From the NCBI GenBank assembly GCA_029577135.1, contig JARQPW010000009.1, positions 1 to 64,000 of the forward strand: 64,000 bases of DNA. Reading direction: 5' to 3'. The position numbers and the translations under genes were made by a program. Under the pieces are notes generated by a model. The model worked only from the letters and a program-made list of their open reading frames with translations, was not told the DNA's origin and made no database searches. Every line of letters begins with the position of its first letter. Position 1 is the stretch's first letter. This DNA comes from Acidimicrobiales bacterium. GTDB taxonomy: Bacteria; Actinomycetota; Acidimicrobiia; Acidimicrobiales; MedAcidi-G1. This document shows, piece by piece, positions 11,803-63,167 of the stretch.

Positions 11803-11821
11803 GACGAAACCCGATTTGGGA

Positions 11822-14142: not shown

Positions 14143-14148
14143 TAGCCT
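14143..14148 (+). promoter_or_regulatory. TAGCCT -10 box, leaderless start of the 14156 gene
   Basis: TAGCCT ends 7 nt before the GTG at 14156, so the transcript would begin at the start codon. The same arrangement recurs at several genes in this window. Confidence 0.55.
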
Positions 14149-14155
14149 CGCCCCC

Positions 14156-14464
14156 GTGGAAACCGCAGCATCCGACGCCATTCCTTCAGTCGTTCCGTCG
14201 GCCGCCCCGCCGACCATGGCCCGGATCCTGGCCTTCGTCGCCATTCTCGTCGCCGGCGCCTGTGGTGGGCTCGTGGGCTACGCCGTCACCGACCTCCAGT
14301 GCACCGACGGTTGCACGACGCTGGCCGGGTCACTCGGGGTGCTCGGTGCCGCTGGAGCGGCGGTCGGTGTCGGCATCGTGGCGACGCTCACGCTGCGGGC
14401 CATGGCCGAATGGCGGACCAACGAACTCCAGCAGGCGGCTCGGGACCACCACCCCATCACCTGA
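14156..14464 (+). CDS. Small membrane protein, two predicted helices
   Basis: The protein of 102 residues has a Ser/Ala/Pro-rich start and two hydrophobic stretches, ILAFVAILVAGACGGLVGYAV and GSLGVLGAAGAAVGVGIVATL, joined by a short loop with two cysteines (LQCTDGCTT). The tail is charged. The family is unknown to me. The GTG at 14156 is favoured by the -10 box 7 nt upstream; an internal ATG at 14215-14220 is the alternative. The gene ends 6 nt before the inositol-phosphatase gene, so the two are probably co-transcribed. Confidence 0.65.
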   Translation: METAASDAIPSVVPSAAPPTMARILAFVAILVAGACGGLVGYAVTDLQCTDGCTTLAGSLGVLGAAGAAVGVGIVATLTLRAMAEWRTNELQQAARDHHPIT

Positions 14465-14470
14465 CACACC

Positions 14471-15262: not shown

Positions 15263-15333
15263 CCGGTGCACATTCCCACCGTTTTCCACCAATTCTGGGC
15301 ATCGGTCAGCATTCGCATCACAAATCGGGCACG

Positions 15334-16023
15334 ATGATGCACGTGGGAACACGGATCCTGACCGTCGAGGACGACGAACGCATCCGCACCGCCGTCCGCC
15401 TCGCCCTCGAGGACGAGGGCTGGGAGGTAGAGGAGACGGCCAACGGCGAGGAGGCACTGGCGGCCTTCACCCGGGAACCCAGCGACGTCGTGCTCATCGA
15501 CATCATGCTCCCGGGCGTCGACGGCTTCGAGGTCTGCCGCAGCATCCGCCGCACGAGTGCCGTGCCGATCGTCATGGTCACGGCACGCTCCGACACCCAC
15601 GATGTCGTCGCCGGCCTCGAGGCGGGTGCCGACGACTACCTCACCAAGCCGTTCGCCCCAAAGGAGCTCTCGGCGCGAATCCGAGCGCTGCTCCGCCGAT
15701 ACCGCTCCTCCGAGACGATGCCCGAGACCATGAACTTCGACCAATTGGAGGTGGCCCCCGAGGAGGGTGTGGTCCGCCTGGCCGGGATCGAGGTCCACCT
15801 GACCAGGACCGAGTTCCAACTTCTGATCGAACTGGGGCAGCACGCCGGCAAGGTCCTGAGCCGGGAGGACCTCCTCGAGAGGGTCTGGGGGTACGACTAC
15901 TTCGGCGACGGCCGCCTGGTGGACGTCCACGTCCGCCGCCTGCGGACCAAGATCGAACCCGATCCCGCCAACCCTCGCTTCGTCGTGACCGTTCGCGGCA
16001 TGGGGTACAAGCTCCAGCCCTGA
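15334..16023 (+). CDS. OmpR/PhoB-family response regulator (MtrA-like by context)
   Basis: The protein has 229 residues. The receiver domain carries the acidic pair (EDDE), phospho-acceptor D56 (VVLIDIMLPG), a Thr/Ser switch (VTARSD) and LTKPF. The C-terminal winged-helix includes LTRTEFQLLIELGQHAGKVLSREDLLERVWGY (in parts: LTRTEFQLLIEL, VLSREDLLERVWGY) and DVHVRRLRTKIE. Start alternatives are ATG 15334 and 15337. It lies 1 nt ahead of its kinase, and a LpqB-like lipoprotein follows, which resembles the actinobacterial MtrA-MtrB-LpqB arrangement governing envelope homeostasis. Confidence 0.93.
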   Translation: MMHVGTRILTVEDDERIRTAVRLALEDEGWEVEETANGEEALAAFTREPSDVVLIDIMLPGVDGFEVCRSIRRTSAVPIVMVTARSDTHDVVAGLEAGADDYLTKPFAPKELSARIRALLRRYRSSETMPETMNFDQLEVAPEEGVVRLAGIEVHLTRTEFQLLIELGQHAGKVLSREDLLERVWGYDYFGDGRLVDVHVRRLRTKIEPDPANPRFVVTVRGMGYKLQP

Positions 16024-16024
16024 C

Positions 16025-17452
16025 ATGACCGCTGTCGCCGAGCCGAGAAACACCCTCAGGCCGGTCGGGCTTCGGGCGCGCATCTCGATGGCCTTCGCCA
16101 TCGGCGGCCTCCTGCTCTCGGTGGCGCTCGCCGGCGCCACCATGGTGTTGTCCCGTGGACAGCTCATCGAGACGCATGAGGAGAGTGCTGCCGCCGTCGC
16201 CGTCAGCAACGCCGTCCGCCTCAACAACCAGCTCACGCCGGACACCACCGTCGAGGACCTTCCCTCCATCGTGGACTCGCTGACGAGCCTCGAGGGCAGC
16301 CAACGCCTGGTGCGCCTCAGGACCGACTGGCTCCTCGCTCCCGAGTTCGGCCACGGAGACATCCCCGGCGTGCTCACGGCACACGTCGAGAACGGTCAGC
16401 CCGGACAGATCCGGGCGATCGTCGCCGGTCGACCCCAACTGGTGATCGGGCTTCCGTTGCCCTCGTTCGACGCCGCCTACTACGTCGTCTTCGACCTCGA
16501 TGGCGTCGCCGACACGCTCGGAACCATCAGGATCATCCTGCTCTCGGCCGGCGCGGCGACGACGCTGCTCGGTGCGGTGATCGGCTGGTGGGCGAGCCGC
16601 CGTACCCTTCGCCCCCTGCGTCGGGTCAGCGCAGCCGCCCGGGCCATTGCCGGAGGACGCCTCGACACGCGGCTCGAACGACAGGCCGACCCCGACCTGA
16701 ACACCTTGGCCGATTCATTCAACGGCATGGCCGAGGCCCTCGAGGCCAGGATTTCTCGCGACGCCCGCTTCGCCTCCGAGGTCAGCCACGAGCTCCGGAG
16801 CCCCCTGATGACCCTCACGACCACCGTCGGCATCCTGGAGGCCCGTCGCGACCAGTTCTCCGAGCGTTCCCGGACCGCCCTCGACCTCCTCTCCCAGGAC
16901 CTTGCCCGATTCAGCCGCTTGGTCGAGGACCTGCTCGAGATCTCGCGTTTCGACGCAGGCGCCGCCTCCCTGGAGTTGACCGAGATCAACGTCACCAACT
17001 TCGTCCACGCCTCGCTGAGCGCCGCCCACCTCGGCGATGTCGCTGTGACAGACGGCTTCGGCGACCGGCCGGCTGTGATCGATGGCGACAAGCGGCGTCT
17101 GGCCCGGGTGATGGCCAACCTCCTGGACAACGCGACACACCACGGCGGTGGCCTCACGGGCGTCTTCATGGAGCGGGACGCCGAAGTCGTCCGGATCGGA
17201 ATCGAGGATGACGGGCCGGGCGTGCCGACTACCGAACGGGAACTGATCTTCGACCGCTTCTCCCGTGGGTCCTCTGGCGGTCGCCGCGGTGGGGACTCCG
17301 GGGCCGGCCTGGGCCTCAGCCTCGTCTGGGAGGACGTCCGCCTCCACACCGGGAGGGTCTGGGTCGAGGATCGCAGCGACGGCGGCTCCGGCGCCCGATT
17401 CATCATCGAGTTGCCGCTCCCCCCGGACGACCCCGAGGAAGCGACCACATGA
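16025..17452 (+). CDS. Membrane sensor histidine kinase (MtrB-like by context)
   Basis: The protein has 475 residues. An N-terminal helix (SMAFAIGGLLLSVALAGATMVL), an extracytoplasmic sensor region of ~130 residues and a second helix (IILLSAGAATTLLGAVIGW) lead into a HAMP domain. The DHp domain has FASEVSHELRSPLMTL with the phospho-His. The ATPase domain has MANLLDNATHHGGG (N box), DDGPGVP (G1) and GDSGAGLGLSLV (G2). It overlaps the next gene by 4 bp (ATGA), linking it to the lipoprotein. Confidence 0.93.
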   Translation: MTAVAEPRNTLRPVGLRARISMAFAIGGLLLSVALAGATMVLSRGQLIETHEESAAAVAVSNAVRLNNQLTPDTTVEDLPSIVDSLTSLEGSQRLVRLRTDWLLAPEFGHGDIPGVLTAHVENGQPGQIRAIVAGRPQLVIGLPLPSFDAAYYVVFDLDGVADTLGTIRIILLSAGAATTLLGAVIGWWASRRTLRPLRRVSAAARAIAGGRLDTRLERQADPDLNTLADSFNGMAEALEARISRDARFASEVSHELRSPLMTLTTTVGILEARRDQFSERSRTALDLLSQDLARFSRLVEDLLEISRFDAGAASLELTEINVTNFVHASLSAAHLGDVAVTDGFGDRPAVIDGDKRRLARVMANLLDNATHHGGGLTGVFMERDAEVVRIGIEDDGPGVPTTERELIFDRFSRGSSGGRRGGDSGAGLGLSLVWEDVRLHTGRVWVEDRSDGGSGARFIIELPLPPDDPEEATT

Positions 17453-18093
17453 GGCGCACGAGGACCCCCGTGGCCGTGACAGTGCTCCTCGGACTGTCGA
17501 TGCTCGCCACCGCCTGCGGCATCACCGTGGAGAGCCGGCCGCGGCCGGTCTCGGCGCCCATTCCCGATGCACTGCAACCGGACATCACAACGACGACGCT
17601 CACCTCCCCGGACACCGAGCAGGTCGAGATCTTCCTCGCACGAAACGTCGGCGATCGCATGCGGTTGGCAAAGGTCACGCGCGACATCGACCCGGATGGC
17701 ACGGTCAACACGATCCTCGAGCAGGTGCTGGCCGGCCCGAACCTCGAGGAGCAGGAGGTGGAGTACGTCTCGCCGTTCATCGAGGGCAGCACGATCATCG
17801 GCACGATCCTGAACGGGACCCTGCTCGAGATCCACCTGGACAGCCTCGACGGCTTCCCGCAGGACGACTCGGCGAGCAACCGCCTCGCCTACGCCATGCT
17901 CGTCTGCACGGCCACCGAGTTGATCGTCGGAGCAGAGATCCAACTGGTGAAGATCCTCGTCGAGCGCGACGGGGAGCTGATTCCGATCAACATCCCGGTG
18001 AGCGACGGCGAGCCGACCGAGGAGGGTGCGCCCGTCTACTGCGCCAACTACGCCACCTTCGACCCCCGCTACCGGACGCCCGAGGAGGGCTGA
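17449..18093 (+). CDS. GerMN-domain lipoprotein, LpqB-like
   Basis: This 214-residue protein has a lipoprotein signal (MRRTRTPVAVTVLLGL then LATACG, lipidation Cys about residue 23). The mature part resembles a GerMN/sporulation-germination domain (EQVEIFLARNVGDRMRLAKVTRDI, NTILEQVLAGP, LLEIHLDSLDGF). LpqB of mycobacteria carries such domains, binds MtrB and is encoded next to mtrAB. This one is much shorter than LpqB because it lacks the C-terminal propeller part. It is translationally coupled to the kinase, so a sensor-accessory role is likely. Confidence 0.8.
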   Translation: MRRTRTPVAVTVLLGLSMLATACGITVESRPRPVSAPIPDALQPDITTTTLTSPDTEQVEIFLARNVGDRMRLAKVTRDIDPDGTVNTILEQVLAGPNLEEQEVEYVSPFIEGSTIIGTILNGTLLEIHLDSLDGFPQDDSASNRLAYAMLVCTATELIVGAEIQLVKILVERDGELIPINIPVSDGEPTEEGAPVYCANYATFDPRYRTPEEG

Positions 18094-47359: not shown

Positions 47360-47420
47360 TGACCTGCAGTTTCCTGGTGGGCGCGGAGGGACTTGAACCC
47401 CCGACCCCCTCCTTGTAAGG
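47360..47420. repeat. attL: 61-bp direct repeat containing a tRNA-Val 3' fragment
   Basis: It is identical to 58765-58825. Positions 47375-47420 are 46 nt of the tRNA (anticodon loop, T-arm, acceptor, CCA) on the minus strand; the 5' half of the tRNA is absent. Confidence 0.95.
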
Positions 47421-47923: not shown

Positions 47924-48841
47924 ATGAGCGACCTTCAGGGCCGCGTGGCGGTCGTGACAGGTAGCGCTAGCGGGATCGGCTTCGCTTTGGCCGAGCGCTT
48001 CGCCGCCGAAGGCATGAGAATCGTGCTCGCCGACGTGGAGCGCCGGGCTCTTGAGAAAGCCAAGGCCCGTCTCGAGGCCAGCGGGGCAGAGGTCCTGGCC
48101 GTGGAGACTGACGTTGGGGACGCCGAACAGATGGATGCCCTGGCTGAGAAGACGCTGGAGCATTTCGGCACCGTTCACCTTGTGTGCAACAACGCTGGGG
48201 TCGGCTTGGCCGGCCCCTTGTGGGAGTTCGGCATCCGGGACTGGGAGTTCGTGCTCAACTGCAACCTGTGGGGTGTGATCCACGGGATTCGCGTGTTCGT
48301 GCCCCATCTGGTGGCGCAGAACGAGGGATACGTAGTGAACACGGCCTCAATGGCCGCGCTGATGTCGGGCGCGGGTGCTGGGCCGTACACGGCTAGCAAG
48401 CAAGCGGTCGCTGGAATTACCGAAACGCTCTACCAGGACCTGAAGAAGGTGGCTTCCGAGGTGGGCGTTTCGCTACTCTGTCCCGGATTCACCAGGACGC
48501 GCAGCTTCGACTCGGAGCGAAACCGCCCCGAAAATCGCAACCGAGCGCCAGAAAGCGCTGCGAAATTCCCTAGTGCTGCAATCTTCGAGCAGGGTATGGC
48601 CCCCGAAGAGGTCGCACGTCAGACCTGGCAGGCGATCCTCGAACGACGTTTCTACGTCCTGACGCACGATGGCGCCGTGGATCCCGTCCGGGCCCGTGCC
48701 GACGCGATCATCGGCGGCCACGCCCCGGCCGCCGCCACGCCTACAGTCGGCGTAGACGTGCATGAGGCCCTCGTGGCTGAGTGGGCTGCCGGTCGAGCAG
48801 ACAGTGCGGACCGGTCGTCCAGCGACGACTTGCGGAGGTAG
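47924..48841 (+). CDS. Classical short-chain dehydrogenase/reductase
   Basis: The 305-residue SDR has the cofactor loop VVTGSASGIGFALAERF, LVCNNAGVG, catalytic Ser in NTASMAAL and the YTASKQA Tyr/Lys pair. The acidic residue after strand 2 (VLADVERRALEK) suggests NAD preference. The C-terminal ~20 residues (GRADSADRSSSDDLRR) are antisense to a recombinase-like fragment, so the natural C-terminus may have been replaced. It is flanked on both sides by the IS-end-like repeat. Confidence 0.88.
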   Translation: MSDLQGRVAVVTGSASGIGFALAERFAAEGMRIVLADVERRALEKAKARLEASGAEVLAVETDVGDAEQMDALAEKTLEHFGTVHLVCNNAGVGLAGPLWEFGIRDWEFVLNCNLWGVIHGIRVFVPHLVAQNEGYVVNTASMAALMSGAGAGPYTASKQAVAGITETLYQDLKKVASEVGVSLLCPGFTRTRSFDSERNRPENRNRAPESAAKFPSAAIFEQGMAPEEVARQTWQAILERRFYVLTHDGAVDPVRARADAIIGGHAPAAATPTVGVDVHEALVAEWAAGRADSADRSSSDDLRR

Positions 48842-49100: not shown

Positions 49101-49907
49101 TCATCCGAGCGGCGGTTCCTCCGGAAGGTTCGGTCGCCAGGAGACCCCGTTTACATGGCCGCCTCCATCGGCGAAAATGGTGTTCCCGTTGACATAACTG
49201 GCGTCGTCCGAAGCCAGGAACAGCGCCACCCCACCGATGTCCTCCTCGGGATCGCCCATACGGCCCATGACGTTGTTCGCCTCGGCATGGGCGGCCTGTT
49301 CCGGGTTGGCTGCCGCAAAGGCCAGGAACGCATCGCTGCGGGCCGCCGGGCAGATCACGTTGCACCGGATCTGGTGGCGCCCCCATTCAACGGCCGCTGT
49401 CCGGGTCAGGGTGCGCAGCGCCTCTTTCCCTGCGTTGTATTCGAGTGTGTACATATGGGCGTTCACCCCATTGAGGGAGCACACGTTGATGATCGAACCG
49501 CTCCCGCGTACCCGCATGTGGGGCAGCGCCGCGGTCATCGTCCAGAAGGCCGCGTAGTAGGCCATGTCCAGACCGTGCTGCAATAACTCGTCGGTTTTCC
49601 ACTCGATGCGACCGATACGGCCGCCTCCCCACGCGTTGTTGACCAGGATGTCGACACCGCCGAAGTGACTCACCGCCGCCTCGACACAGCCCACGGCCTG
49701 GTCGCGCACGGTGACGTCGGTTGCGACGAACAGTGCCTCGGCTCCAAGGGCTTCGGCCTCGGCGACGGTCCGGGTCCCGGTCTCGGTATTGCGTTCGGCG
49801 ACCACCACCCGGGCGCCTTCTCGGGCGAACCGTCGGGCGATACCCGCACCGATCCCCGTCCCTGCCCCGGTCACTACCGCGACCCGGCCGTCCAGTCGTC
49901 CGTGCAT
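49101..49907 (-). CDS. Short-chain dehydrogenase/reductase
   Basis: The 268-residue SDR has VVTGAGTGIGAGIARRF, ILVNNAWGGG (NNAW variant of NNAG), Ser in INVCSLNG and the YNAGKEA Tyr/Lys pair, ending DGGGHVNG. VVVAERN after strand 2 suggests NAD(H). The ATG at 49907 matches the family start. It is convergent with the first SDR and lies between repeat copies 2 and 3. Substrate unknown. Confidence 0.88.
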   Translation of the reverse strand: MHGRLDGRVAVVTGAGTGIGAGIARRFAREGARVVVAERNTETGTRTVAEAEALGAEALFVATDVTVRDQAVGCVEAAVSHFGGVDILVNNAWGGGRIGRIEWKTDELLQHGLDMAYYAAFWTMTAALPHMRVRGSGSIINVCSLNGVNAHMYTLEYNAGKEALRTLTRTAAVEWGRHQIRCNVICPAARSDAFLAFAAANPEQAAHAEANNVMGRMGDPEEDIGGVALFLASDDASYVNGNTIFADGGGHVNGVSWRPNLPEEPPLG

Positions 49908-50016
49908 CGCGCTTCTCCCTATCGTCGTATCGACAGGGTAGGGAAGGAGCCGTGAGCGCACCCAATCGACGAGCCACGGTCGCGTCAAGGAGATTACCGA
50001 TCAGAGCTTGGCCGCT

Positions 50017-50567: not shown

Positions 50568-51518
50568 GTGGTCCCCCCTTCTGCCCTCGAACCAACCGGA
50601 GGTGGCGAGTACAAGATCTTCACTCCCTACTACCGTCGCTGGAGCGCAGCAGACTGGCGTCCGACGGAGCCCGTACCAAAGCAACTGGCAGATCCTGACC
50701 TTGAGAGCGGCCACAACCTCCTCGACCTCCTACCCCCCTCGACCAACGAATCGGGGATCGTCGGTGGCGAAACGGCCGGACGCCGACGACTGTCCGCATG
50801 GCTCGACGGACCACTCGACAGCTACGAAGACGGCCGGGATACTCCTGCCGGCGAACACACCTCGCGCCTCTTCGCATATCTTCACCTGGGGTGCCTGTCG
50901 CCCCTTGAGGTGGCCTTGGCCGCCTCTGAGCATCCCGCAGGTGACTCCTTCGTGCGACAGCTCTGTTGGCGAGACTTCTTACTCCAGGTTCTGGCCGCTC
51001 GCCCGGACGCGTCGACCGCGCCCTACCGGGACCGGGGCGACACATGGGTCGACGACCTGGACGCCCTCCAAGCATGGCAGAACGGCCAGAGGGGGTTTCC
51101 GCTGGTCGATGCCGGCATGCGGTAGTTGGCGGGAGAGGGTTTCATGCATAATCGTGCCCGCATGGTCACTGCATCGTTCTTTGTCAAGAACCTTCACCTC
51201 GCCTGGCGTCTCGGGGCACGCCACTTCATGGAACATCTGATCGACAGTGACGTGGCCAGCAACCAGTTGAACTGGCAGTGGACCGCCGGTACCGGAACCG
51301 ACGCCAACCCCCACCGAATCCTCAACCCGACCCGGCAGTCCCAGCGCTTCGACGCCTCGGGTGCCTACATCCGCCGCTGGGTCACCGAGTTGGCCAACCT
51401 CCCCACCGCCCTGATCCATGACCCGCCTGCGGACGTGCGTCGACGCTGCGGCCACCCACTACCAATCGTGGACCACCACGAGGCAGTCGCGGTCTTCCGG
51501 GCCCGACGGGCATCCTGA
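50568..51518 (+). pseudogene. phr: Deoxyribodipyrimidine photolyase, truncated and with an internal TAG
   Basis: Photolyases repair UV dimers with light. The alpha-helical FAD domain is recognisable: YKIFTPYYRRWSAADW, SRLFAYLHLGCLSP, QLCWRDFLLQVLA, FPLVDAGMR, then GFMHNRARMVTASFFVKNLH, ASNQLNWQWTAGTGTDANPH and YIRRWVTEL. One TAG at 51123-51125 stands where the family has Gln (GMRQL), a single-base CAG to TAG change with the frame otherwise intact to 51518. The N-terminal antenna domain (~200 residues) is missing upstream of 50568. It is therefore probably dead. Confidence 0.88.
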
Positions 51519-51531
51519 CCACAAGGCGCCG

Positions 51532-51939
51532 ATGGCCACACTCCCCACAGCCGATCCCGGCCCCGCCTTCGCCGCGTTCGTCGCGGAACGCCACCTGGCA
51601 GTCCTCACGCTGGTGCGTTCGAACGGTCGTCCGCACTCGACGCCCGTCGGGTTCACTTGGGACGCAGACCACGCTCGCGCCCGGATCATCACGTGGTCGG
51701 GCAGCGTCAAGGTGTCCCTCCTGGCAGCCGAGCCGCTCGAGGGCTCGATCTGCCAGGTGGACGGTGGCCGCTGGCTGACCATCGAAGGACCCTGCACCGT
51801 CACCAGCGACCCGGCCGCCTGTGCCGATGCAGTACAGCACTACGCGACCCGCTACCGCCCGCCGAAGGAACGCGGTACCGAGCGGCGGGTCATCCTGCTC
51901 GAAGCGACGCGGATACTGGCCGGCGGTTCGCTGGCCTGA
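51532..51939 (+). CDS. PPOX-class flavin/F420-type protein
   Basis: The 135-residue split-barrel protein shows PAFAAFVAERHLAVLTLVRSNGRPHSTPVGF (in parts), ARIITWSGSVKVSLL and EGPCTVTSDPAACADAVQHY, like actinobacterial F420-dependent or FMN-binding PPOX proteins. The ATG at 51532 is 13 nt after the photolyase frame ends, so the two were probably one transcript. Substrate unknown. Confidence 0.78.
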   Translation: MATLPTADPGPAFAAFVAERHLAVLTLVRSNGRPHSTPVGFTWDADHARARIITWSGSVKVSLLAAEPLEGSICQVDGGRWLTIEGPCTVTSDPAACADAVQHYATRYRPPKERGTERRVILLEATRILAGGSLA

Positions 51940-52177: not shown

Positions 52178-53041
52178 TCAGCGGATCCTCGGGACCAGCG
52201 CGGGGGTGGCGGACTTGTATGCCTCGTAATCGGTGTTGCCTCCCCATCGGCGATCGGCGGCGGCCTCCAGGAGTGGCAGGCCGCTGACGCGTGTGAGCAG
52301 GAAGAACACGAACACCGGCGAGACCAACGTCAGGAGGCTCCAGCCCGAGAGTGCCGGCACGGCGACCAGAGCAACGCCTACCCACAACACGATCTCTCCC
52401 AGATAGTTGGGATGACGCGACCACGCCCAGAGGCCTGTAGAGATGAAGCGACCCTGGTTCTGGGCTGCAGCACGGAAGTAGCGCTTCTGTCGGTCGGCCA
52501 CCACCTCGAACACCAGTCCCGAGGTCCAGACCAGCAGGCCAACTGCGTCGAGTGGGCCCAGGCCGGGTTGGTTCGTCGCCGTGATGGCCCCCAACGCAGC
52601 GGCTGCAGTCAGGATCACCCACAGGCCTTGGAGCGTCCAGGTCATCAAGAACCAGGCAAAGCGGTGTTTCATGGCATCGAAGCGCGAGTCCGACCCCGTC
52701 GTATGGACCCGCGCGTACAGGAATGATCCGAGGCGTGCGGCCCAGACGACGACCATGGCGCCGAGCAGCAGCGCCCGGATCCCGGGCTCAGGTGATGCAA
52801 CCAGCGCCACCAGGACGACGGTCAGGTAACTCACGGAACCGATCAGATCGAAAAACTTCTCCGAATGAGCCAGCCAGGCAGGCAGAAACGCCAACCACTG
52901 GAGACCGAAGGCAACGAGTGCACACCATGCGAAGACGGGGATCCCGACCCAGGTAACTCCCCCTGCACTCCCAGCGGCGGCGACGATGGCTCCCAAGACA
53001 ACGGCCACACCGATGCTGGCAACTGATCGGGTCGTGGTCAT
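52178..53041 (-). CDS. DUF1295 membrane protein (steroid 5-alpha-reductase-like)
   Basis: The 287-residue protein has about seven helices. The C-terminal part carries the 5-alpha-reductase/isoprenylcysteine-methyltransferase-like pattern: DRQKRYFRAAAQNQGRFIST (in parts), GLWAWSRHPNYLGEIVLWVGVAL (in parts) and DYEAYKSATPALVPRI. DUF1295 genes often travel with photolyase and CarH/LitR genes. The role is unknown; lipid or quinone reduction is possible. It overlaps the SDR-DUF2867 gene by 4 bp. Confidence 0.87.
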   Translation of the reverse strand: MTTTRSVASIGVAVVLGAIVAAAGSAGGVTWVGIPVFAWCALVAFGLQWLAFLPAWLAHSEKFFDLIGSVSYLTVVLVALVASPEPGIRALLLGAMVVVWAARLGSFLYARVHTTGSDSRFDAMKHRFAWFLMTWTLQGLWVILTAAAALGAITATNQPGLGPLDAVGLLVWTSGLVFEVVADRQKRYFRAAAQNQGRFISTGLWAWSRHPNYLGEIVLWVGVALVAVPALSGWSLLTLVSPVFVFFLLTRVSGLPLLEAAADRRWGGNTDYEAYKSATPALVPRIR

Positions 53042-54552
53042 CGTGCCTCCTCACCTTCGGCGTCGCTCCATCGCTTCTCGGCGACGGCGACGATCCCTCT
53101 GAGCATCCTGGAGAAGATCAGGACATGCGGTGGGATCAGGACATACCAGTAGAGACGGCCCAGCAGGCCGCGTGGAACGAACAGGGCACGCTGGCGGACC
53201 TGCGTTCCGCTCGCACCCTCGCTGACCGTCCACTCCAGCCAGGCATGTCCTGGAAGACGCATCTCCGCAAGCAGTCGCAGCGAACCCCCGTCGAGCTCCA
53301 CCACGGTGAAGAAGTCGACCGTGTCGCCGATCCTCAGTTCCGTGGGGTGCCTGCGTCCCCGTCGAAGCCCGACCCCGCCGATCAACTTGTCGACAAACCC
53401 ACGCAAAGCCCATAGCCGGTTGAAGGCGAACCACCCGGTGTCACCGCCGACCGAACGGACCACGTCCATTACCTCATCAGGTGCCGCTCTAGTCGTCTGG
53501 ACTCGTTCGTCACTCAGGACCAGACCGCCGGACCACGACGGATCGCCCGATGCCGGACCGGCCGGACTATCGGTCCGCAAAGTTCCCGAGGCATCAGTCC
53601 ACCGAGTCGGCAACTCGAGGTCCCGGACCCGCGCCAGGGCCCGACTAATCGACTGGCGGAGATCAAACGACGGCCGGCGGCCGATCCGTTCGATGGTCCG
53701 GTCTCCCACGACGACGTCGCTTGTGAGGGAATCGATGAGAGACTGGGCCAACTGGATGGGCAACGGGCTAACGAGGTTCACCCAGTGTGAGGACAGGCGG
53801 GGGGTGAGGACGGGAACCGGCATGATAAGTCGGCGACGGAGCCCGGCCACTTCAGCGTAAACGTCCATCATCTCCCGGTACGTCAACTCCTCTGGGCCAC
53901 CGATCTCGAAGATCTGGCCGAGCACCTCGGCCCGACCCATGACATCGACCAGATGGCCGAGAACGTCCTCGATGGCAATGGGTTGGCACCGGGTCACTGA
54001 GACCCAACGCGGTACGACCATCACCGGTAGGACCTCGACGAGCGAACGCAGCATCTCGAATGAAGCGCTTCCGGAGCCGATGATCACCGCTGCCCGGAGT
54101 TCGACGACCGGTGTCCTCCCCGCTGCCAGGATCTCACCGACCCGGTGCCGGCTCGCCAAATGGGCCGAATGTTTCTCAGCGTCGTGACCCAGACCGCCGA
54201 GGTAAACCACCCGTTCGAGGCGGGCGTGTTCGGCAGCCTCAGCGAAGACCTTGGCCATCTCCTGTTCCATCTGTTCGAAGGCCTCTGAAGAGGCCATCGA
54301 ATGGACTAGGTAGTAAGCGGCCTGGATGCCCTTGAGGGCAGCTTCTACCTGCTCGGGTACGGCCAGGTCGGCCTCGACGACCTCCACGTCATTTCGCCAT
54401 GGACGGCCGTCAAGGGCAGCGGCCCGGCGGGCCACGCACCGGACCTGGTACCCGGCGTCGAGCAGTTCCGGCACGAGTCGCCCACCCACGTAACCAGTCG
54501 CTCCGGTCACGAGCACCGGCGCATTCAACGCAATGTTTTCTTGATCCACCAT
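53038..54552 (-). CDS. NAD(P)-binding SDR-like protein fused to DUF2867
   Basis: The 504-residue protein has an NmrA/extended-SDR N-terminal domain (VLVTGATGYVGGRLVPELLDAGYQVRCVARR, in parts; YYLVHSMAS; VYLGGLGHD; ELRAAVIIGSGSASFE) and a C-terminal DUF2867 SRPBCC-like domain from ~365 (WFAFNRLWALRGFVDKLIGG, LPGHAWLEWTV, RALFVPRGLLGRLYWYVLIP, all in parts). This fusion is frequent in light-induced clusters of other bacteria. Substrate unknown. The ATG at 54552 lies 31 nt after the regulator gene. Confidence 0.88.
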   Translation of the reverse strand: MVDQENIALNAPVLVTGATGYVGGRLVPELLDAGYQVRCVARRAAALDGRPWRNDVEVVEADLAVPEQVEAALKGIQAAYYLVHSMASSEAFEQMEQEMAKVFAEAAEHARLERVVYLGGLGHDAEKHSAHLASRHRVGEILAAGRTPVVELRAAVIIGSGSASFEMLRSLVEVLPVMVVPRWVSVTRCQPIAIEDVLGHLVDVMGRAEVLGQIFEIGGPEELTYREMMDVYAEVAGLRRRLIMPVPVLTPRLSSHWVNLVSPLPIQLAQSLIDSLTSDVVVGDRTIERIGRRPSFDLRQSISRALARVRDLELPTRWTDASGTLRTDSPAGPASGDPSWSGGLVLSDERVQTTRAAPDEVMDVVRSVGGDTGWFAFNRLWALRGFVDKLIGGVGLRRGRRHPTELRIGDTVDFFTVVELDGGSLRLLAEMRLPGHAWLEWTVSEGASGTQVRQRALFVPRGLLGRLYWYVLIPPHVLIFSRMLRGIVAVAEKRWSDAEGEEAR

Positions 54553-54583
54553 GGAATTCCTCACAGTTCTGGTACGGAGACCG

Positions 54584-55408
54584 TCAGCTACCGACAAGCG
54601 TCTCGATCAGGTCGAGTCCTTCCCGGAAGCCCGAGACGACGTGATCAACACCCAGTTCCCCTGCTGAAAGACCGACGACTGCGATGCCACCGACGATCAT
54701 TGGCTCCCCGAAACCAGCCGACCTCAGTTCGTCGACACATGTGCGAAGTCCTTCGAGGGACGTCGCGACCGAAACCGAGAAGGCGACGGCTAAAAGTCGG
54801 TCTGCATCCGCGCAAACGTCCACGAAGGACAAGGGCGGGGTGTTGGCTCCGAGGTTTTGCACCTCGAATCGACGACCGCGCAGTAACTCCTCGAAGATTG
54901 ATGCTGGAATGCTGTGTTCTTCAGTCGGCGGGCAACCAACGATTACGAGTCCTCGCTTCCGTCCGGACGGTCGGGGTGTCGTCCGAAGGCGACCGAGCAG
55001 CGAGGGAACCAGCGCCGAGGCACGGTGCTCGTCGGCGATTGACCTGCTGCCCTCCTGCCACTCATTACCGATCTTGTCCATCGCGGGTACAAGTAGGTCG
55101 ATGCAGAACTCTTCGATGCCACAACCAGCTTGTTTCTGGGAATCTGCGATCCTCCAGACTCCGCTCTCGTCACCGCTCACAAGAGCATTGACCAGACGCG
55201 GCACCAGACGGGCTAGATCGCGTTTCCCTCGCCCCACCTCGGCAGACGGGCTGACCTGGAGGTTTCCAAGGTCCGCCAGCTTGACCCACCACATTCCTCC
55301 GTCCTTGGTTGCTGGAAGCAAACCAGTCCGGACGTAGCGGTAGACGGTCATGTAGTGGAGACCGAGCTCGTCAGCAGCCTCACGAAGGCTGAGCCTTTCA
55401 CTGCTCAT
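54584..55408 (-). CDS. CarH/LitR-like B12-binding HTH regulator (putative light sensor)
   Basis: The 274-residue protein has a MerR/excisionase-type helix-turn-helix (residues ~5-45, LREAADELGLHYMTVYRYVR), a four-helix B12 cap (~65-145) and a Rossmann B12-binding domain (~150-270). The cap holds W117-x9-E127-H128 (NEWQEGSRSIADEH), the CarH signature that packs on the adenosyl group. The lower-ligand His is probably H165 in TEEHSIPAS; the usual ExHxxG is ExHxxP here. CarH tetramers bind DNA in the dark and fall apart when light breaks adenosylcobalamin. Neighbours with light roles support the call. Confidence 0.85.
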   Translation of the reverse strand: MSSERLSLREAADELGLHYMTVYRYVRTGLLPATKDGGMWWVKLADLGNLQVSPSAEVGRGKRDLARLVPRLVNALVSGDESGVWRIADSQKQAGCGIEEFCIDLLVPAMDKIGNEWQEGSRSIADEHRASALVPSLLGRLRTTPRPSGRKRGLVIVGCPPTEEHSIPASIFEELLRGRRFEVQNLGANTPPLSFVDVCADADRLLAVAFSVSVATSLEGLRTCVDELRSAGFGEPMIVGGIAVVGLSAGELGVDHVVSGFREGLDLIETLVGS

Positions 55409-55500: not shown

Positions 55501-56277
55501 CTAACCAGCGAGAGTGTTGCCGAAGATTTGCCAGGCGAGCGCCGACTTCGCCGTCAGGCTCAGGTACAGGTACACCCGCTCTCCATGAAGATAATCGCCC
55601 CATCTGCCAACCCCTCGATACTGCAGGTACTGGTTGGCGGCAAAGAGGTTGAAGAGCACAAAGATGCTGGCGAAGATCCCATAGACAAAGTTGGGCATAT
55701 CACCGCCAGGTCCCACGAGATACCAGCACAACGCCACCCAGGGCACCACGCCAGCCACGCACCCAAACCAAAACGGGGTCCACCAAACAGTTTCCCCAGG
55801 ACGGTTCACAACCTCCATGATCCAGCCGAACAAGATCATGGCCAGATTCGCTCCGGAAAGGCCGAGTAGGGCGGCAATGTCGTTGATGCCGAAAAGCATT
55901 GCGATCAACAGGACCATGACCGTCGACGACATTGCGTATTCGACCCAACGGAAGCGATTCTGGCCTTGTGCCAGCTCGCTTTGATAGGCACGCCTTCCGG
56001 GTCCAACCGCCACGGCAAGGTGGAAGGCGCACGACAAGGCGAGAAACGCGACGACTCCGAGGGAGATTCGAACCTGGAATAGGCGCACGAGGCGGCTGGT
56101 GTCAAGACGACCGTTCGGGACGTCGTTCCAGAAGAACCCTGTCACCGGAAGAGCGAACCTGTTGGACGCCAAGAGCACTATGAGTGCCTGTACTCCGTGA
56201 AGGATGGCCGCAGCGATATTGAGTCGCTGCAACCGCCGCCCCGTTCGAGCGTTGATCGCAGAAGTAGTTGTTGCCAT
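55501..56277 (-). CDS. Heliorhodopsin
   Basis: Heliorhodopsins are seven-helix retinal proteins with inverted topology and no clear ion pumping. This 258-residue protein has the family segments RLQRLNIAAAILHGVQA (H27), AFHLAVAVG (H86), RFRWVEYAMSSTVMVLLIA with counterion E113, MILFGWIME, PFWFGCVAGVVPWVAL, FVYGIF, QYLQYRGVGRWGDYLHGER and finally LSLTAKSALAWQIFGNTL with the retinal Schiff-base K244. All key residues are present. An AAGGACGG site precedes the ATG at 56277. It lies between a fasciclin gene and the CarH-like regulator. Confidence 0.95.
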   Translation of the reverse strand: MATTTSAINARTGRRLQRLNIAAAILHGVQALIVLLASNRFALPVTGFFWNDVPNGRLDTSRLVRLFQVRISLGVVAFLALSCAFHLAVAVGPGRRAYQSELAQGQNRFRWVEYAMSSTVMVLLIAMLFGINDIAALLGLSGANLAMILFGWIMEVVNRPGETVWWTPFWFGCVAGVVPWVALCWYLVGPGGDMPNFVYGIFASIFVLFNLFAANQYLQYRGVGRWGDYLHGERVYLYLSLTAKSALAWQIFGNTLAG

Positions 56278-56390: not shown

Positions 56391-56969
56391 CTAGGGCAGG
56401 AGGACCTGGTCGATGACATGGATCACGCCGTTTGATGCCTCGATGTCAGCTGACACAACATGTGCGCCGTTGACGCTGACAGTTCCACCATCCTCTGTGA
56501 TCGTGATGTCTGCACCGTTGACTGTCGCAACCGGCATCGCCATTACACCCACCAGATCGCCAGCCATCACACGTCCTGGAACAACGTGATAGGTCAACAC
56601 AGCGGTCAACGTGTCCACATCGGCCAAAAGCTCATCGGCAGTCAACCCGAGGGCCTCGAGTGCCGCAGCGAAAGCCTCTTCATTCGGAGCGAACACCGTG
56701 AAGGGACCCTCCGACTTCAACGTGTCAACCAAACCAGCAGCCACCACAGCGGCCACCAACGTCGGGAACTCCTTGGACGCAACCGCTACATCGACCACAT
56801 CCACAAGAACCGGCTCCACAACCTCAACCACAGGTTCAACCACGGTTTCGGATCCCGACGTGGGCGTTGCTACGCCGTCGCCATCTGAACCACAGGCGGC
56901 TCCGACGAAAACGACGATGAGCAAGCAAGCAATGGAGCGGAAGGTCTTTCCAACAATTTTGTCAGACAT
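56391..56969 (-). CDS. Fasciclin (FAS1) domain lipoprotein
   Basis: The 192-residue protein has a lipoprotein signal (FRSIACLLIVVFVGAACGS) and a short acidic Val-rich linker. One FAS1 domain follows: FPTLVAAVVAAGLVDTLKSE, GPFTVFAPNEEAFAAAL (H1), LTYHVVPGRVMAGDL (YH motif) and SNGVIHVIDQVLLP (H2). FAS1 proteins are surface adhesion or ligand-binding modules. The ATG at 56969 has AAAGG at good distance; ATG 56978 is too close to it. The gene lies directly upstream of the heliorhodopsin gene. Confidence 0.93.
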   Translation of the reverse strand: MSDKIVGKTFRSIACLLIVVFVGAACGSDGDGVATPTSGSETVVEPVVEVVEPVLVDVVDVAVASKEFPTLVAAVVAAGLVDTLKSEGPFTVFAPNEEAFAAALEALGLTADELLADVDTLTAVLTYHVVPGRVMAGDLVGVMAMPVATVNGADITITEDGGTVSVNGAHVVSADIEASNGVIHVIDQVLLP

Positions 56970-57030
56970 ATCTTTCATCCTTTCGAGGGACCAAATTGCT
57001 GGTCTCATGGGAGACCCTCAACATTGTTCC

Positions 57031-57053
57031 TAGTTGGTACTAATTTTGATTAG
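57031..57053 (-). promoter_or_regulatory. Adjacent small palindromes upstream of fasciclin (candidate operator)
   Basis: An AT-rich patch holds TAGT-TGGT-ACTA (57031-57042) and CTAAT-TTTG-ATTAG (57040-57053), about 60 nt before the fasciclin start. Part of it (TTGGTACTAATT) resembles TTAGTGCTAATT at 57637-57648. It could bind the CarH-like regulator. No promoter is clear here. Confidence 0.4.
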
Positions 57054-57100: not shown

Positions 57101-57370
57101 TTACCCAGATCGCTTCGGAGAGCTCTCCCCAACTCCGGCGCCCCATCGGGCCAACTTTCCGACCTGCCCTGCAATTCGCCCGGAGGTGGGTCGAATCAAG
57201 GTCTCGCTAACCAGCACCTCGACCTTTCGGCCACCATCCCCAGTGGATTGAATCCCGGCCCGGGCACCTTGTGACGATGAATCTGTGGCCACATACCCAG
57301 CTACGAGAAGTCCCCAGAAGGTGATCGCATACACCAGCACTCCAACTGCCAAGAGAAGTGATTCGCTCAC
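57101..57370 (-). CDS. Tiny membrane protein B upstream of the heliorhodopsin genes
   Basis: The 89-residue protein has one N-terminal helix (SLLLAVGVLVYAITFWGLLVAG) and a polar tail (VEVLVSETLIRPTSGRIAGQ) that would lie on one side of the membrane. It overlaps gene A by 4 bp (ATGA), so both are translated together. I do not recognise a family. Confidence 0.65.
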   Translation of the reverse strand: MSESLLLAVGVLVYAITFWGLLVAGYVATDSSSQGARAGIQSTGDGGRKVEVLVSETLIRPTSGRIAGQVGKLARWGAGVGESSPKRSG

Positions 57371-57576
57371 GAAGGCGCCCCTGGGTTTGCGAGAACCAGT
57401 GCTCCGAGCGAGTGGATGGCCGGAACCCAGAGGCCAACGAAGAGGCCTTGCTCCTTGTTGCCCGTGAACCAGAGGCCTACTGCCAAGAACAAGGAAACGA
57501 GTCCTGCCGCCACGAAGATCAGCTTTGACCGATTGACCACACTGATTCGAGGACGGACCAGCTCTTCTGTAGACAC
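57367..57576 (-). CDS. Tiny membrane protein A, first gene of the heliorhodopsin series
   Basis: The 69-residue protein has two hydrophobic helices, KLIFVAAGLVSLFLAVGLWF and LFVGLWVPAIHSLGALVLA, with a short loop TGNKEQG. The GTG at 57576 follows AGGAG at ideal spacing. A full promoter stands ~50 nt upstream. The family is unknown to me; a small hairpin-type membrane subunit is a fair description. Confidence 0.7.
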   Translation of the reverse strand: MSTEELVRPRISVVNRSKLIFVAAGLVSLFLAVGLWFTGNKEQGLFVGLWVPAIHSLGALVLANPGAPS

Positions 57577-57624: not shown

Positions 57625-57653
57625 ATCATTTCATTTTTAGTGCTAATTGACAA
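57625..57653 (-). promoter_or_regulatory. Promoter with palindrome in its spacer, head of the heliorhodopsin gene series
   Basis: On the minus strand TTGTCA (57653-57648) and AATGAT (57630-57625) are spaced by 17 nt. The palindrome TTAGTGCTAA (57637-57646) sits within the spacer, a place where a regulator could block or remodel the promoter. The nearest regulator gene is the CarH-like one. Confidence 0.55.
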
Positions 57654-57748: not shown

Positions 57749-58726
57749 GCCGCACACCTCGACCTCGGCACCTACATCGACCCCAACGCCGGCCGGATCA
57801 CGTTCAGCGCATACGCGGCCCGCTGGTTGGCCAACGCGAACAATCTTCGGGAGACGACGTTCATCAGCTACGAGGCGATCATCCGCAACCACCTCAACCC
57901 GATGCTGGGTTCAACACCGATCGCCCACCTTCGGCCCGACGACTTCCACGAGTTGACCCGGGCTCGCCGGGCCGCTGGATCGAGCAACGGCACGATCCGA
58001 AAGATCGTCAGGCTCGCGAAGACCATCCTGACGAACGCAGTTTCGGATCGCCTGATCGCAATCAACCCCGTCGAATCAGTGCGGAGTCCAAAGGAGGCTG
58101 AACGCCAAGTCCGCTTCCTCACCGCCAACCAACTCGCTGAGCTCGTCGCCGCAACCCACCCCCACTACCGGACCCTGGTGTTGACCGCGGGGATCACCGG
58201 AGCGAGAAGTGGCGAACTACGCGGACTGCATCCGCGAAACCTGAACCTGCTGCGCAATGAGATGCACATCGTCGAACAAGTCGTCGAAGTCCGTGGCGAA
58301 CTCAAGATCCTTCCCCCCAAGACAAAGTCCAGCATCCGGCGCCTCACACTCCCCCGCTTCCTCACCAACGAACTCGAACAACAACTCGCCGAGCGTTCCA
58401 CCACCGAACTGGTCTTTCCCACACCGACCGGAGACACAATCCGCAAGTCCAACTTCGCGCGAAGGATCTGGAAACCCGCCGCGGAGGCCTCGGGACTGGG
58501 GTACCTCACGTTCCACGAACTACGACACACCGCCGTCGCACTCGCCATCGAAGTCGGCGCACACCCAAAGGCCATCCAGGAACGCTTCGGACATTCCTCG
58601 ATAACCGTGACCCTCGACCAGTACGGGCACCTGTTCCCGAGCCTCGACGAGACCCTCGCCGACAACTTCGACCGCTCCTTCGGAAAAACCCTCGCGCCCC
58701 CAGCGCTCCCCGAGACCGCCAGTTGA
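57749..58726 (+). pseudogene. int: Tyrosine-recombinase integrase lacking its N-terminus
   Basis: The protein part of ~325 residues has the core-binding domain (GRITFSAYAARWL, TTFISYEAIIRNHLNPMLG) and a complete catalytic domain: Arg in TGARSGELRGL, Lys in PKTKSSIRRL, HELRHTAVA, RFGHSS and the Tyr in TLDQYGHLF. The usual N-terminal arm-binding domain (~60-90 residues) is missing: an in-frame TAA at 57746-57748 ends the frame, and no ATG or GTG precedes the core-binding domain; a TTG at 57827 is the first usable codon. Sitting beside attR at tRNA-Val, it is the enzyme that inserted the island, now likely inactive. Confidence 0.88.
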
Positions 58727-58764: not shown

Positions 58765-58825
58765 TGACCTGCAGTTTCCTGGTGGGCGCGGAGGGACTTG
58801 AACCCCCGACCCCCTCCTTGTAAGG
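58765..58825. repeat. attR: 61-bp direct repeat overlapping the 3' part of tRNA-Val
   Basis: It is identical to 47360-47420. The repeat starts 15 nt beyond the CCA end and stops at the last base of the 5' anticodon stem, so the crossover was in or near the anticodon loop, as usual for tyrosine integrases. Confidence 0.95.
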
Positions 58826-58856
58826 GAGGTGCTCTAGCCATCTGAGCTACGCGCCC
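58780..58856 (-). tRNA. tRNA-Val (anticodon TAC), CCA encoded
   Basis: The minus strand gives a full cloverleaf: acceptor GGGCGCG/CGCGCCC, D-arm GCTC/GAGC, anticodon arm CCTCC-CTTACAA-GGAGG with anticodon TAC, T-arm with GTTCAAG and discriminator A. CCA is encoded (58782-58780). It reads toward the island, whose integration regenerated its 3' half. Confidence 0.97.
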
Positions 58857-60340: not shown

Positions 60341-61575
60341 CCGCCCTCCCCCGTCTTCCCCGACTCGGCGACCAGTCGTCGGCGGCGCACCATCCTCAGG
60401 CACGACCACAGGTCGTCGAGGTCGACGTAGCAGCCCTGCAGGTGGCGCTCCCCCTGCGCCGGGTCGAAGCCCTCCCGGCCGTGGAGCACCCGGCCGTTAC
60501 GGAAGCACACCAGGTCGCCCGGGCGCCACGTCGTGGTGATCCGGAACCGGGGGTCCGCGGCCACCTCGGTGACGAGGCGAAGCGCACGATAGGCCTCGGG
60601 CAGGTCACCTTCCCCCATTTCGGGCAACGCCCGCGTTCCGGTCGACAGCCGGATCTCGGCCGGTTCGCCTTCGGCGTCGAGCCGGACCACCGGCGACGAC
60701 CAGCGCAGATCGGTCTGCGTGGAACGGTTCGTGTGGACCCAGCGGAACGTCGTCAGCGCTTCGAAGGCGTCGGGATCGGTGCGGCGGATCTCGTCGACCA
60801 CGGCGAAGCCGTCGACCATGACGCTTCTCCCGTCGGGGCACGTGTTGACGAGGCAGTGCAGCAACTGGAGGCCCGGCTGGTGCTCCCGGGTCGAAATGTC
60901 GACGTGGGGGGCCAGCGGGAGGCTCGTGTAGGCGTTCGACTCGTTCTCCGGAGCGATCACGACCTCGAAGGTGTGGCCGAAGTGGGTCGTCCGCACGACG
61001 CCCAGACGCTCGGCCACTGCGACGACCGTGCCCGACCCGGTCGGCAGCCCCTCGAGGCGGCCGATGCCGTGGACGGCCAGCGACGTGCACCAGGCGCCGA
61101 GCACCTCGTCGTCCCCGGCGAGCACCCCAGGCCCGTCAAAGGTCGGAAGGCTCGTCAGGCCGGACACCGTCCAGGCCAAGGGCGCGGGGACGGCGTCGCC
61201 GGGCAGGTATCTGCCCTCGACGAGGTGTCGTAGCCATCCGGGGTGGAAGCGCCCTTTGGCGCCGGTCGACCAGGTCACCTCGAGGGCACCATCGCCGTCC
61301 ACCCTTGCGGCCAACGGCGCCGGGTCCTCGGGAACCTCCGTCCACTCGAGTTGGCGCTGGCGGGTGTCAGCCGACGTGATCCCGGAGACGTACTGGTTTT
61401 CGTAGAGGAGGAGTCCGAACACACGGTCTGCCCTGCCGTCCTCCCAACGGACCCCTACCCATGCCCCGTCGACAGACGCTTCGACGAGTGCCGACCCGAC
61501 CGGGTGGACCTCGAAGTCCGGATGGCCGGGAAGGCCGGCTGACCGCTCCACGGCCGCGCAACCTAGGCGCGCCAC
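60337..61575 (-). CDS. Gamma-butyrobetaine hydroxylase-like Fe(II)/2-oxoglutarate dioxygenase
   Basis: The 412-residue protein has an N-terminal DUF971-like domain (EVTWSTGAKGRFHPGWLRHL, in part like the GBBH-like zinc domain but without the Cys set) and a TauD-type catalytic domain. Iron ligands are H/D in APHVDIS and the distal His in NGRVLHGREGF, with the 2-oxoglutarate Arg in GERHLQGCYVDLD. It resembles gamma-butyrobetaine/trimethyllysine hydroxylases, which hydroxylate betaines in carnitine metabolism. Substrate is inferred. Confidence 0.83.
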   Translation of the reverse strand: MARLGCAAVERSAGLPGHPDFEVHPVGSALVEASVDGAWVGVRWEDGRADRVFGLLLYENQYVSGITSADTRQRQLEWTEVPEDPAPLAARVDGDGALEVTWSTGAKGRFHPGWLRHLVEGRYLPGDAVPAPLAWTVSGLTSLPTFDGPGVLAGDDEVLGAWCTSLAVHGIGRLEGLPTGSGTVVAVAERLGVVRTTHFGHTFEVVIAPENESNAYTSLPLAPHVDISTREHQPGLQLLHCLVNTCPDGRSVMVDGFAVVDEIRRTDPDAFEALTTFRWVHTNRSTQTDLRWSSPVVRLDAEGEPAEIRLSTGTRALPEMGEGDLPEAYRALRLVTEVAADPRFRITTTWRPGDLVCFRNGRVLHGREGFDPAQGERHLQGCYVDLDDLWSCLRMVRRRRLVAESGKTGEGG

Positions 61576-61603
61576 CGGTCCGATGCTGGGAGGAGCGCAG
61601 GCC

Positions 61604-61609
61604 TAGGGT
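61604..61609 (+). promoter_or_regulatory. TAGGGT -10 box, leaderless start of the YHYH gene
   Basis: TAGGGT ends 7 nt before the ATG at 61617. Confidence 0.55.
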
Positions 61610-61616
61610 CGTCGGG

Positions 61617-63167
61617 ATGCAGTCCACCACGGTGACAAAGCGCCTCGCATCCGAGATCGCGATCGCCCTGCTCGCCATGGCGGGACTGTCGTGTGCCGAC
61701 GGCGGTCCGACGCCGACAGCCACCACGACCACCACGACCACGACGACCACGACGACCACGACCACCGTGCCCGTCCCGGAAGGGCCGGACGCACTGCTCG
61801 CCACCTGGATGCTCAACCCCGACGGTCACACTGCGGCGGTGATCGAAGACGAAAGTCCCATCCCGGTCAACGTGCAGTCGGTCGAACTGGCAACGGTCGA
61901 AGGCGTCGACTACGTCCGCGTGCTCGCCACCGGGATCCCCGACTACACGCACCTGCTCACAGACGCCGGCGCCGCCTTCCTCGTGGACCGCCCCCGGGCC
62001 GCCACCGACTTCCGGGGGGGACGTCCCCTCGTCGGCGCCGGGGACACCCTCGGCTTCGGCCAGGACCTCGGCTACGCCAGCACCGGTTGCCGGGACCTGC
62101 CGGGTACCGGCTACGGATTCTGGCCACCGGGACCAGTCTGTCCCACGCGCCAGGACTGGGACGCCTGGTTCCCTGTCGAACCCGTCGAGGCCGCTGAGCC
62201 CGTCGCCACCGGCCTCGGCGTCATCGGACTCTGGGTGAACGGCGTCGCCGTCTTCAACTGGGGCGACGGCCAGTCCTGGGCAGACGAGCGGGTCTGGTTC
62301 AACCTCGCCCCTGTCGCCGAGGTCTACGACCTCGACGTGTGTCCGGGACACTCCGCGATGGGCACCTACCACCACCACTCGCACCCCGGCTGCCTCGCCG
62401 ACGAGTTGGGCGACGACGGTTCAGTCCACTCACCCGTCTACGGCTACGCGGCCGACGGGGTGCCGATTGCCGGCCCGTGGGTCGCCGACGGCGTGTTCGC
62501 CCGCTCCTCCTGGCGCCTGCGCGACTACGACGATCCGGATTCACCCACCGGATGCGGGGCTGCAGGTGTGCGCTCATGCCTGTTGGCCGACCAACTCGAC
62601 CCGTCGGCGGGAAGGGTGGCGACGGACCATCCCGGCCCCGACACGTCGGACACTGTGCGGACGATGTCGGGCAACGAGTTGACCGCCGTTGCCGGCTACT
62701 ACCTCGAGGACTGGTACTTCGACGCCGCACTCGACGACGGCAGCCCCGAGGCGCTCGACGAGCACAACGGGCATCTCGGCGGGCTTCCCGGCTTCGCCCG
62801 GTCGAGGTACCACTACCACGTGACGCGCGCTGTCGATCCTGGGGTACCAGGGGGGCTCACCGACGTGTTCCCCTACTACGTGGGTCCGACCTTCTGGGGC
62901 GAACTCCACGACAACGCCCTCCTCCTCGGCGGCCCCGGTGGCGGCCCGGGACCCGGTGGCCCCGGACAGGGTGGCCCGGGTGAGGGCGGCCCCGGCGGCC
63001 CGCCCGACTTCACCGAGGCGGCCGAGGCCCTCGGCGTCACCGTGGACGAACTGCTGGCCGCACTCGGCCCGCCGCCGCCCGACCTCGAGGCCGCCGCAGC
63101 GACCCTCGGGGTCACCGCCGAGGCGCTCCGGGCCATCCTCCCGCCGCCGCCCCGACCGGGTCCCTGA
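61617..63167 (+). CDS. YHYH-domain secreted lipoprotein
   Basis: The 516-residue protein has a lipoprotein-like signal (IAIALLAMAGLSCADGG), a pure Thr linker (about 15 T) and a YHYH domain with GTYHHHSHPGC and RSRYHYHVTRAVDP plus DGVPIAGPW. The His clusters suggest metal binding. A Gly/Pro-rich segment follows (GGPGGGPGPGGPGQGGP), then two copies of a short helical motif (EAAEALGVTVDELLAALG and AAAATLGVTAEALRAIL). Family function is unknown. Start set by the -10 box. Confidence 0.85.
   Translation: MQSTTVTKRLASEIAIALLAMAGLSCADGGPTPTATTTTTTTTTTTTTTTVPVPEGPDALLATWMLNPDGHTAAVIEDESPIPVNVQSVELATVEGVDYVRVLATGIPDYTHLLTDAGAAFLVDRPRAATDFRGGRPLVGAGDTLGFGQDLGYASTGCRDLPGTGYGFWPPGPVCPTRQDWDAWFPVEPVEAAEPVATGLGVIGLWVNGVAVFNWGDGQSWADERVWFNLAPVAEVYDLDVCPGHSAMGTYHHHSHPGCLADELGDDGSVHSPVYGYAADGVPIAGPWVADGVFARSSWRLRDYDDPDSPTGCGAAGVRSCLLADQLDPSAGRVATDHPGPDTSDTVRTMSGNELTAVAGYYLEDWYFDAALDDGSPEALDEHNGHLGGLPGFARSRYHYHVTRAVDPGVPGGLTDVFPYYVGPTFWGELHDNALLLGGPGGGPGPGGPGQGGPGEGGPGGPPDFTEAAEALGVTVDELLAALGPPPPDLEAAAATLGVTAEALRAILPPPPRPGP

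Follow-up and report, generated by a model that had tools for sequence, protein, structure and literature searches.

The window, by which we mean the whole 64-kb stretch of DNA analyzed here, carries a heliorhodopsin (HeR) gene on the minus strand at positions 55501 to 56277 (ATG at 56277, stop codon at 55503–55501). Its identity, proposed in a preliminary description of the sequence, is borne out by profile matches that mark the product as a genuine heliorhodopsin: Pfam Heliorhodopsin (PF18761) is matched over positions 1 to 242 of 242 (294 bits, E value of 1e-87), the NCBIfam HeR equivalog NF038020 gives 278 bits against a cut-off of 100, and phmmer aligns residues 14 to 256 with the 48C12 heliorhodopsin at an E value of 1e-70. 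The product has 258 amino acids and covers the whole profile, in agreement with the normal length stated in that description, and the four residues singled out there fall where they were said to fall: H27 and H86 occupy the pocket-histidine columns of 48C12, E113 that of the counterion and K244 that of the Schiff-base lysine. All four are invariant among 20 aligned HeRs, and the full-length protein retains 44 invariant positions. An AlphaFold model (pLDDT 86) adopts the seven-helix fold with a TM score of 0.89 to 48C12 (PDB ID: 6su3), and its last helix, residues 229 to 257, contains K244, so that a lysine lying outside helix 7, which had been named as evidence against retinal binding, is not what the model presents. 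The window protein thus resembles 48C12 (PDB IDs: 6su3 and 6uh3; about 47% identity) in fold, length, lysine, counterion and pocket histidines and differs from it in genomic setting, namely an operon with a CarH-like regulator on an island. From the intact pocket residues and the model, it should bind retinal. The arginine-rich N terminus is compatible with the inverted topology, in which the N terminus would lie inside. What heliorhodopsins do is still a matter of debate.

The HeR gene belongs to an apparent operon on the minus strand that begins with a small membrane protein–like ORF of 69 amino acids (57367 to 57576; GTG start, character judged from the translation) and continues with an ORF of 89 amino acids without a family match (57101 to 57370), a putative lipoprotein with a fasciclin domain directly upstream of HeR (56391 to 57008), HeR itself, a gene for a CarH/LitR-type regulator (54584 to 55408), an SDR-DUF2867 NAD(P)-binding protein (53038 to 54597) and a DUF1295 membrane protein of the steroid-reductase/ICMT-like kind (52178 to 53041). 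The two small ORFs overlap by 4 bp, carH and the SDR-DUF2867 gene by 14 bp and the SDR-DUF2867 and DUF1295 genes by 4 bp. Gaps of 92 bp precede the fasciclin gene, 113 bp precede HeR and 92 bp separate HeR from carH; because gaps of 92 and 113 bp flank HeR, internal promoters are possible.

The regulator combines a MerR-like helix-turn-helix with B12-binding_2 and B12-binding domains (Pfam). The cobalamin residues W117, E127, H128 and H165 are present (reference residues in TtCarH: W131, E141, H142 and H177) and are invariant in 12 homologues, and the recognition helix of the helix-turn-helix, HYMTxYRYVR, is nearly invariant among the CarHs compared. The first fold matches of its model are the light-sensing B12 receptors CtMerR, photocobilins and TtCarH. 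Among the signature motifs of CarH photoreceptors, GxxW, EH, GxxH and GxxxP (PMC11796333), the protein has GxxW, EH and GxxxP, with TEEH at the position of GxxH, and it scores 47.8 bits with the NCBIfam CarH equivalog, far under the cut-off of 400. On account of this low score and of the TEEH sequence, we call the regulator CarH-like rather than CarH proper; carH and CarH are used below as short forms.

The operon sits on an 11.4-kb integrative island in tRNA-Val(TAC), as delimited by its sequence features. The tRNA gene (58780 to 58856, minus strand) is the insertion target; a 61-bp att repeat covers its 3′ part (58765 to 58825), and a perfect second copy lies in direct orientation at the far island end (47360 to 47420). 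A tyrosine integrase gene (57827 to 58726, plus strand) stands beside the tRNA, and the GC content is 0.623 between the repeats against 0.694 and 0.714 outside. A relative of the same genus (G023) has a single att copy at the tRNA, followed directly by sequence that matches the window from 45474, and thus preserves the empty site. HeR is absent from all five genus mates, and only 2 of the 48 family genomes have it; in a tree of HeRs the window protein falls in a clade of 16 rows with members of the Ilumatobacteraceae (SH-aLRT 99), apart from the other HeR of its own family. This placement points to a foreign origin of the gene, which would have been acquired with the element. A close relationship of the operon as a whole to the Ilumatobacteraceae loci was considered and set aside; their HeRs are the nearest (61–67%), but carH and the SDR-DUF2867 gene do not adjoin them. 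Because the contig comes from a metagenome, a chimeric join at the 61-bp repeat is conceivable, if improbable.

The integrase keeps an intact catalytic domain, judged by inspection, but is not full length: its N-terminal arm-binding part is missing and an in-frame stop lies upstream of the ORF. A photolyase remnant (50568 to 51518, plus strand) retains only the C-terminal, FAD-domain part, with an in-frame TAG at 51123–51125; its N-terminal domain was not found in the island, which rules out an intact island photolyase. Given the lost integrase N terminus and the interrupted photolyase remnant, the element looks old and is probably no longer self-mobile, and the HeR operon is intact. The remaining cargo comprises a pyridoxamine-phosphate-oxidase-family protein (51418 to 51939, plus strand) and two short-chain dehydrogenases (47924 to 48841, plus strand; 49101 to 49988, minus strand).

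There are signs that the tRNA-Val site is a hot spot of insertion. Other genes occupy it in three further congeners (G019, G021 and G022), and in a genome from another genus of the family (G036) a segment at 11584 to 17618 of locus L039 adjoins the same tRNA-Val and encodes, without HeR, a DUF1295 protein (59%), a PNPOx protein (72%), an acyltransferase, a TIGR01777-like epimerase and a desaturase. Searches of viral contigs returned no relatives of HeR or CarH, and no HeR was found in phages. HeRs on mobile DNA do occur on plasmids of a Chloroflexota member (CP069395) and of Lactococcus petauri (NZ_CP141705); these differ from the window HeR in sequence (36–39% identity), in phylum and in residing on plasmids, not in a tRNA island. 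The island of the window shows one route of HeR spread.

Comparison of carH upstream regions yielded the palindrome TTTAGYRCTAAA, and the form used for searching was TTTAGYRCTAAW, the final W of which was picked to accommodate the site of the window itself. The genome of the window has a single such site, the putative CarH operator TTTAGTGCTAAT at 57636 to 57647, which lies between the −35 and −10 hexamers of a sigma-70-like promoter (TTGTCA N17 AATGAT, 57625 to 57653, minus strand) that is weak when taken alone (one found, 1.0 expected). A second operator-like core with one mismatch, TTAGTACCAA, is found on the minus strand at 57034 to 57043, 26 bp before the fasciclin start, and is the only other core with at most one mismatch in the 64 kb. 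Another palindrome, CTAATTTTGATTAG at 57040, is perfect in the window but missing at other CarH loci, and TTTAGYRCTAAW was preferred.

A genome-wide search for TTTAGYRCTAAW in 26 genomes, in some of which the operator had first been seen, located 18 sites in 13 genomes; sites are present in 13 of 15 CarH-positive genomes and in none of the eight without a CarH match, and the reversed pattern, used as a control, had a single match across the 15 CarH-positive genomes. When only CarH-positive genomes not used for motif discovery are counted, 6 of 8 have a site, compared with none of the eight that lack CarH (Fisher P 0.007). All 18 sites adjoin carH, fasciclin, ECF sigma or WhiB genes. Six are at carH or its operon (G000, the genome of the window, and G099, G125, G253, G160 and G145), six precede ECF sigma genes beside carH (G344, G137 and G287, the first two belonging to one genus), four precede fasciclin genes (G413, G069, G065 and G287) and two precede genes that are WhiB-like by inspection of their translations (G358 and G413). 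No operator was found near carH in G273, G358, G425 or G208. The near-invariant recognition helix is in line with one shared operator. A literature search for the palindrome forms gave, among the matches listed, papers unrelated by title. In G344, G137 and G287 tandem operator palindromes stand before an ECF sigma/anti-sigma pair beside carH (L143, L144 and L148). The LitR-LitS arrangement of Streptomyces resembles such ECF sigma targets and pairs.

The partners of HeR in the window recur elsewhere in the class. Among 80 genomes checked, 12 besides that of the window have an SDR-DUF2867 gene within 5 kb of HeR (G099, G110, G279, G066, G133, G424, G359, G148, G156, G344, G060 and G289), where chance would give about 0.23 if relatedness is ignored; they represent at least seven families. 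Four genomes (G125, G099, G133 and G060) have a B12 regulator no more than about 2 kb from HeR, the regulators of the last two matching in their B12 part alone, and HeR, CarH and SDR-DUF2867 occur together again in distant families. In G099, from another order, SDR-DUF2867 and carH face fasciclin and HeR, all four being shared with the operon of the window; in G125 a 27-residue fasciclin remnant is left between the operator and HeR, followed by carH. Both genomes repeat the layout of operator, fasciclin (in G125 the remnant) and HeR with carH adjacent. Fasciclin is also a neighbor of HeR at three loci (L118, L064 and L113) and DUF1295 at two (L058 and L073). For most HeRs of the class no CarH is found nearby, nor is there an operator near their HeR genes.

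The preliminary description reported no retinal or carotenoid synthesis genes in the window and placed the source of the chromophore elsewhere or outside the cell. The first statement holds for carotenoid genes throughout the 64 kb, and the genome-wide check that it called for extends it: the genome (2.35 Mb, 93% complete) has no match to phytoene synthase (PF00494) and none to Blh/BCD (PF15461). The PF00494 search, which matched seven control genomes, was likewise negative in 47 of the 48 genomes of the family. The Blh null is informative because the same search picked up G208 and G425 among 74 other HeR-bearing genomes of the class. With Blh in 2 of 74 and PF00494 in 11 of 74, HeR as a rule occurs without retinal synthesis in the class, which sharpens the question of where the retinal originates. 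In G425 and G208, the only Blh-positive HeR genomes among those checked, a carH homologue that is more distant (33–36%) is found about 2 kb or less from the Blh/BCD gene (L128 and L129). Precedents exist for HeR or retinal without the genes: retinal is present in Aurantimicrobium minutum, which has none of the known retinal genes (PMC7734400), and 'Ca. Actinomarinales' likewise bear HeR without retinal genes (PMC7771536).

The genome, which lacks carotenoid synthesis, encodes one RPE65-type carotenoid oxygenase on another contig (C56, 25718 to 27010; L035 and L047). Among proteins of solved structure, this enzyme is closest to plant carotenoid dioxygenases and fungal CAO1; a homologue is present in four genus mates that have no HeR and missing from the family's other HeR genome. 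That this enzyme makes retinal from scavenged carotenoids is possible but unsupported. Since PF00494 and Blh are lacking and the sole oxygenase homologue is common to HeR-less congeners, the retinal is probably imported. An external source has therefore survived the genome-wide search as the best reading, short of proof.

We consider it likely that the locus as a whole is a HeR island with a light-response operon governed by CarH. HeR would here probably belong to a mobile photoprotection module and be repressed by CarH and induced by light, to judge from gene order and the putative operator. In the mechanism that we propose, a HeR competent to bind retinal would have arrived on an integrative island in tRNA-Val. 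In the dark, CarH loaded with AdoCbl most likely binds TTTAGTGCTAAT between the −35 and −10 hexamers, and perhaps the weaker site before the fasciclin gene, and by analogy with known CarH systems the bound protein would repress the operon including its own gene. Blue or green light would break the Co–C bond, as in those systems, and CarH would release the DNA. HeR would then be made together with the envelope and lipid-type enzymes, if the genes are cotranscribed as their arrangement suggests, and could load retinal taken up from the surroundings. It might then act as a second, membrane-bound light sensor, most likely one that modulates a partner protein. Glutamine synthetase, photolyase and an ABC transporter have been shown to be partners of HeR elsewhere (PMC9769723, PMC11109279), which suggests a regulatory protein contact for HeR.

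With somewhat less confidence, we also regard as probable a reading in which the module is a self-contained, horizontally moving circuit of two receptors: a CarH with its own operator would switch on HeR together with envelope genes for photoprotection in a host producing neither carotenoids nor retinal, and TTTAGYRCTAAW would define a CarH regulon across the Acidimicrobiia that takes in fasciclin, ECF sigma, WhiB and some HeR genes. If true, such a regulon would assign HeR a role in the physiology of the light-stress response.

Several other explanations were weighed against this mechanism. Assignment of TTTAGYRCTAAW to a regulator other than CarH, such as an ECF sigma factor or WhiB, is unlikely; several sites do precede ECF sigma or whiB genes, but CarH is common to all site-bearing genomes, none of the eight genomes lacking a CarH match has a site, and a site of this kind, perfectly palindromic and placed within a promoter, is what a dimeric repressor rather than a sigma factor typically recognizes. 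We think it rather improbable that HeR is unused cargo, an opsin without a chromophore on a decaying island in a cell that makes no retinal. The lack of phytoene synthase and Blh in the genome and the broken photolyase and integrase N terminus would fit decay of this kind. The full-length HeR nevertheless keeps its 44 invariant positions, 72 of 74 HeR genomes of the class lack Blh, so that HeR must be usable without it, and the retinal of A. minutum was found in just such a bacterium without known retinal genes.

The link to CarH would be secondary if HeR served as a photolyase helper, as has been reported for the HeR of Trichococcus flocculiformis (PMC9769723). A photolyase adjoins HeR in three genomes (G148, G156 and G229) and its remnant is present in the island, but the island copy lacks the N-terminal domain and is interrupted by an in-frame stop while HeR is intact, and we consider this role very unlikely here. 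Least credible is that HeR is an ordinary chromosomal gene whose neighbors are coincidental, with no common regulation or function. HeR is indeed widespread in the class, with 173 of 395 genomes bearing it, often with none of these neighbors; against coincidence stand its absence from all congeners and its position between att repeats, the 12 occurrences of DUF2867 close by where a fraction of one is expected, and the return of the same gene set with the operator in G099 and, without DUF2867, in G125. We retain the island with a CarH-governed operon as the preferred explanation.

Parts of this picture are already known. In a 2024 survey, HeR operons are grouped by frequent partners, among them a MerR family regulator, an SDR or a photolyase, and the SDR and MerR groups are without another grouped gene in the operon; cobalamin goes unmentioned in its main text (PMC11109279). 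HeR-MerR operons and HeR-SDR operons are accordingly not new, and HeR on mobile DNA is known from the two plasmids. The window shares with these groups a HeR beside such a gene, and differs in joining SDR and MerR in one operon and in its CarH-type regulator, proposed operator and island. CarH/LitR regulons of Thermus, Myxococcus and Pseudomonas (class II LitR, PMC9758184) likewise have a B12-type repressor beside a light-induced photolyase, short-chain dehydrogenase and lipid genes, but the genome of the window lacks carotenoid genes and HeR is among the targets, and the operator is TTTAGYRCTAAW rather than T(G/A)TACA-N12-TGTA(C/T)A. HeR neighborhoods of monoderms also contain photoprotection genes and photolyases (PMC8612252); there, zinc-finger HeRs lie beside carotenoid genes and histidine kinases, whereas the window has a B12 receptor, no carotenoid genes and a mobile island. 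Our literature search found no description of a B12-photoreceptor regulator of HeR, its operator, a joint HeR-CarH-SDR operon or a tRNA island, and no paper in which heliorhodopsin and fasciclin were found together. The strand, island, regulator, operator and operon, which the preliminary description did not mention, are more informative than the HeR pocket itself: a HeR under a predicted B12 light switch, with an operator and recurrent partners, would tell when and with which enzymes it is made, and can be tested by binding and reporter assays.

Outside the island, positions 61461 to 61816 of the window form a long GT/CA-rich stretch that reads as poly-Thr or poly-Val in overlapping frames. 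It lies near the start of an ORF of 568 amino acids at 61461 and probably encodes a linker rich in Thr in a secreted protein.
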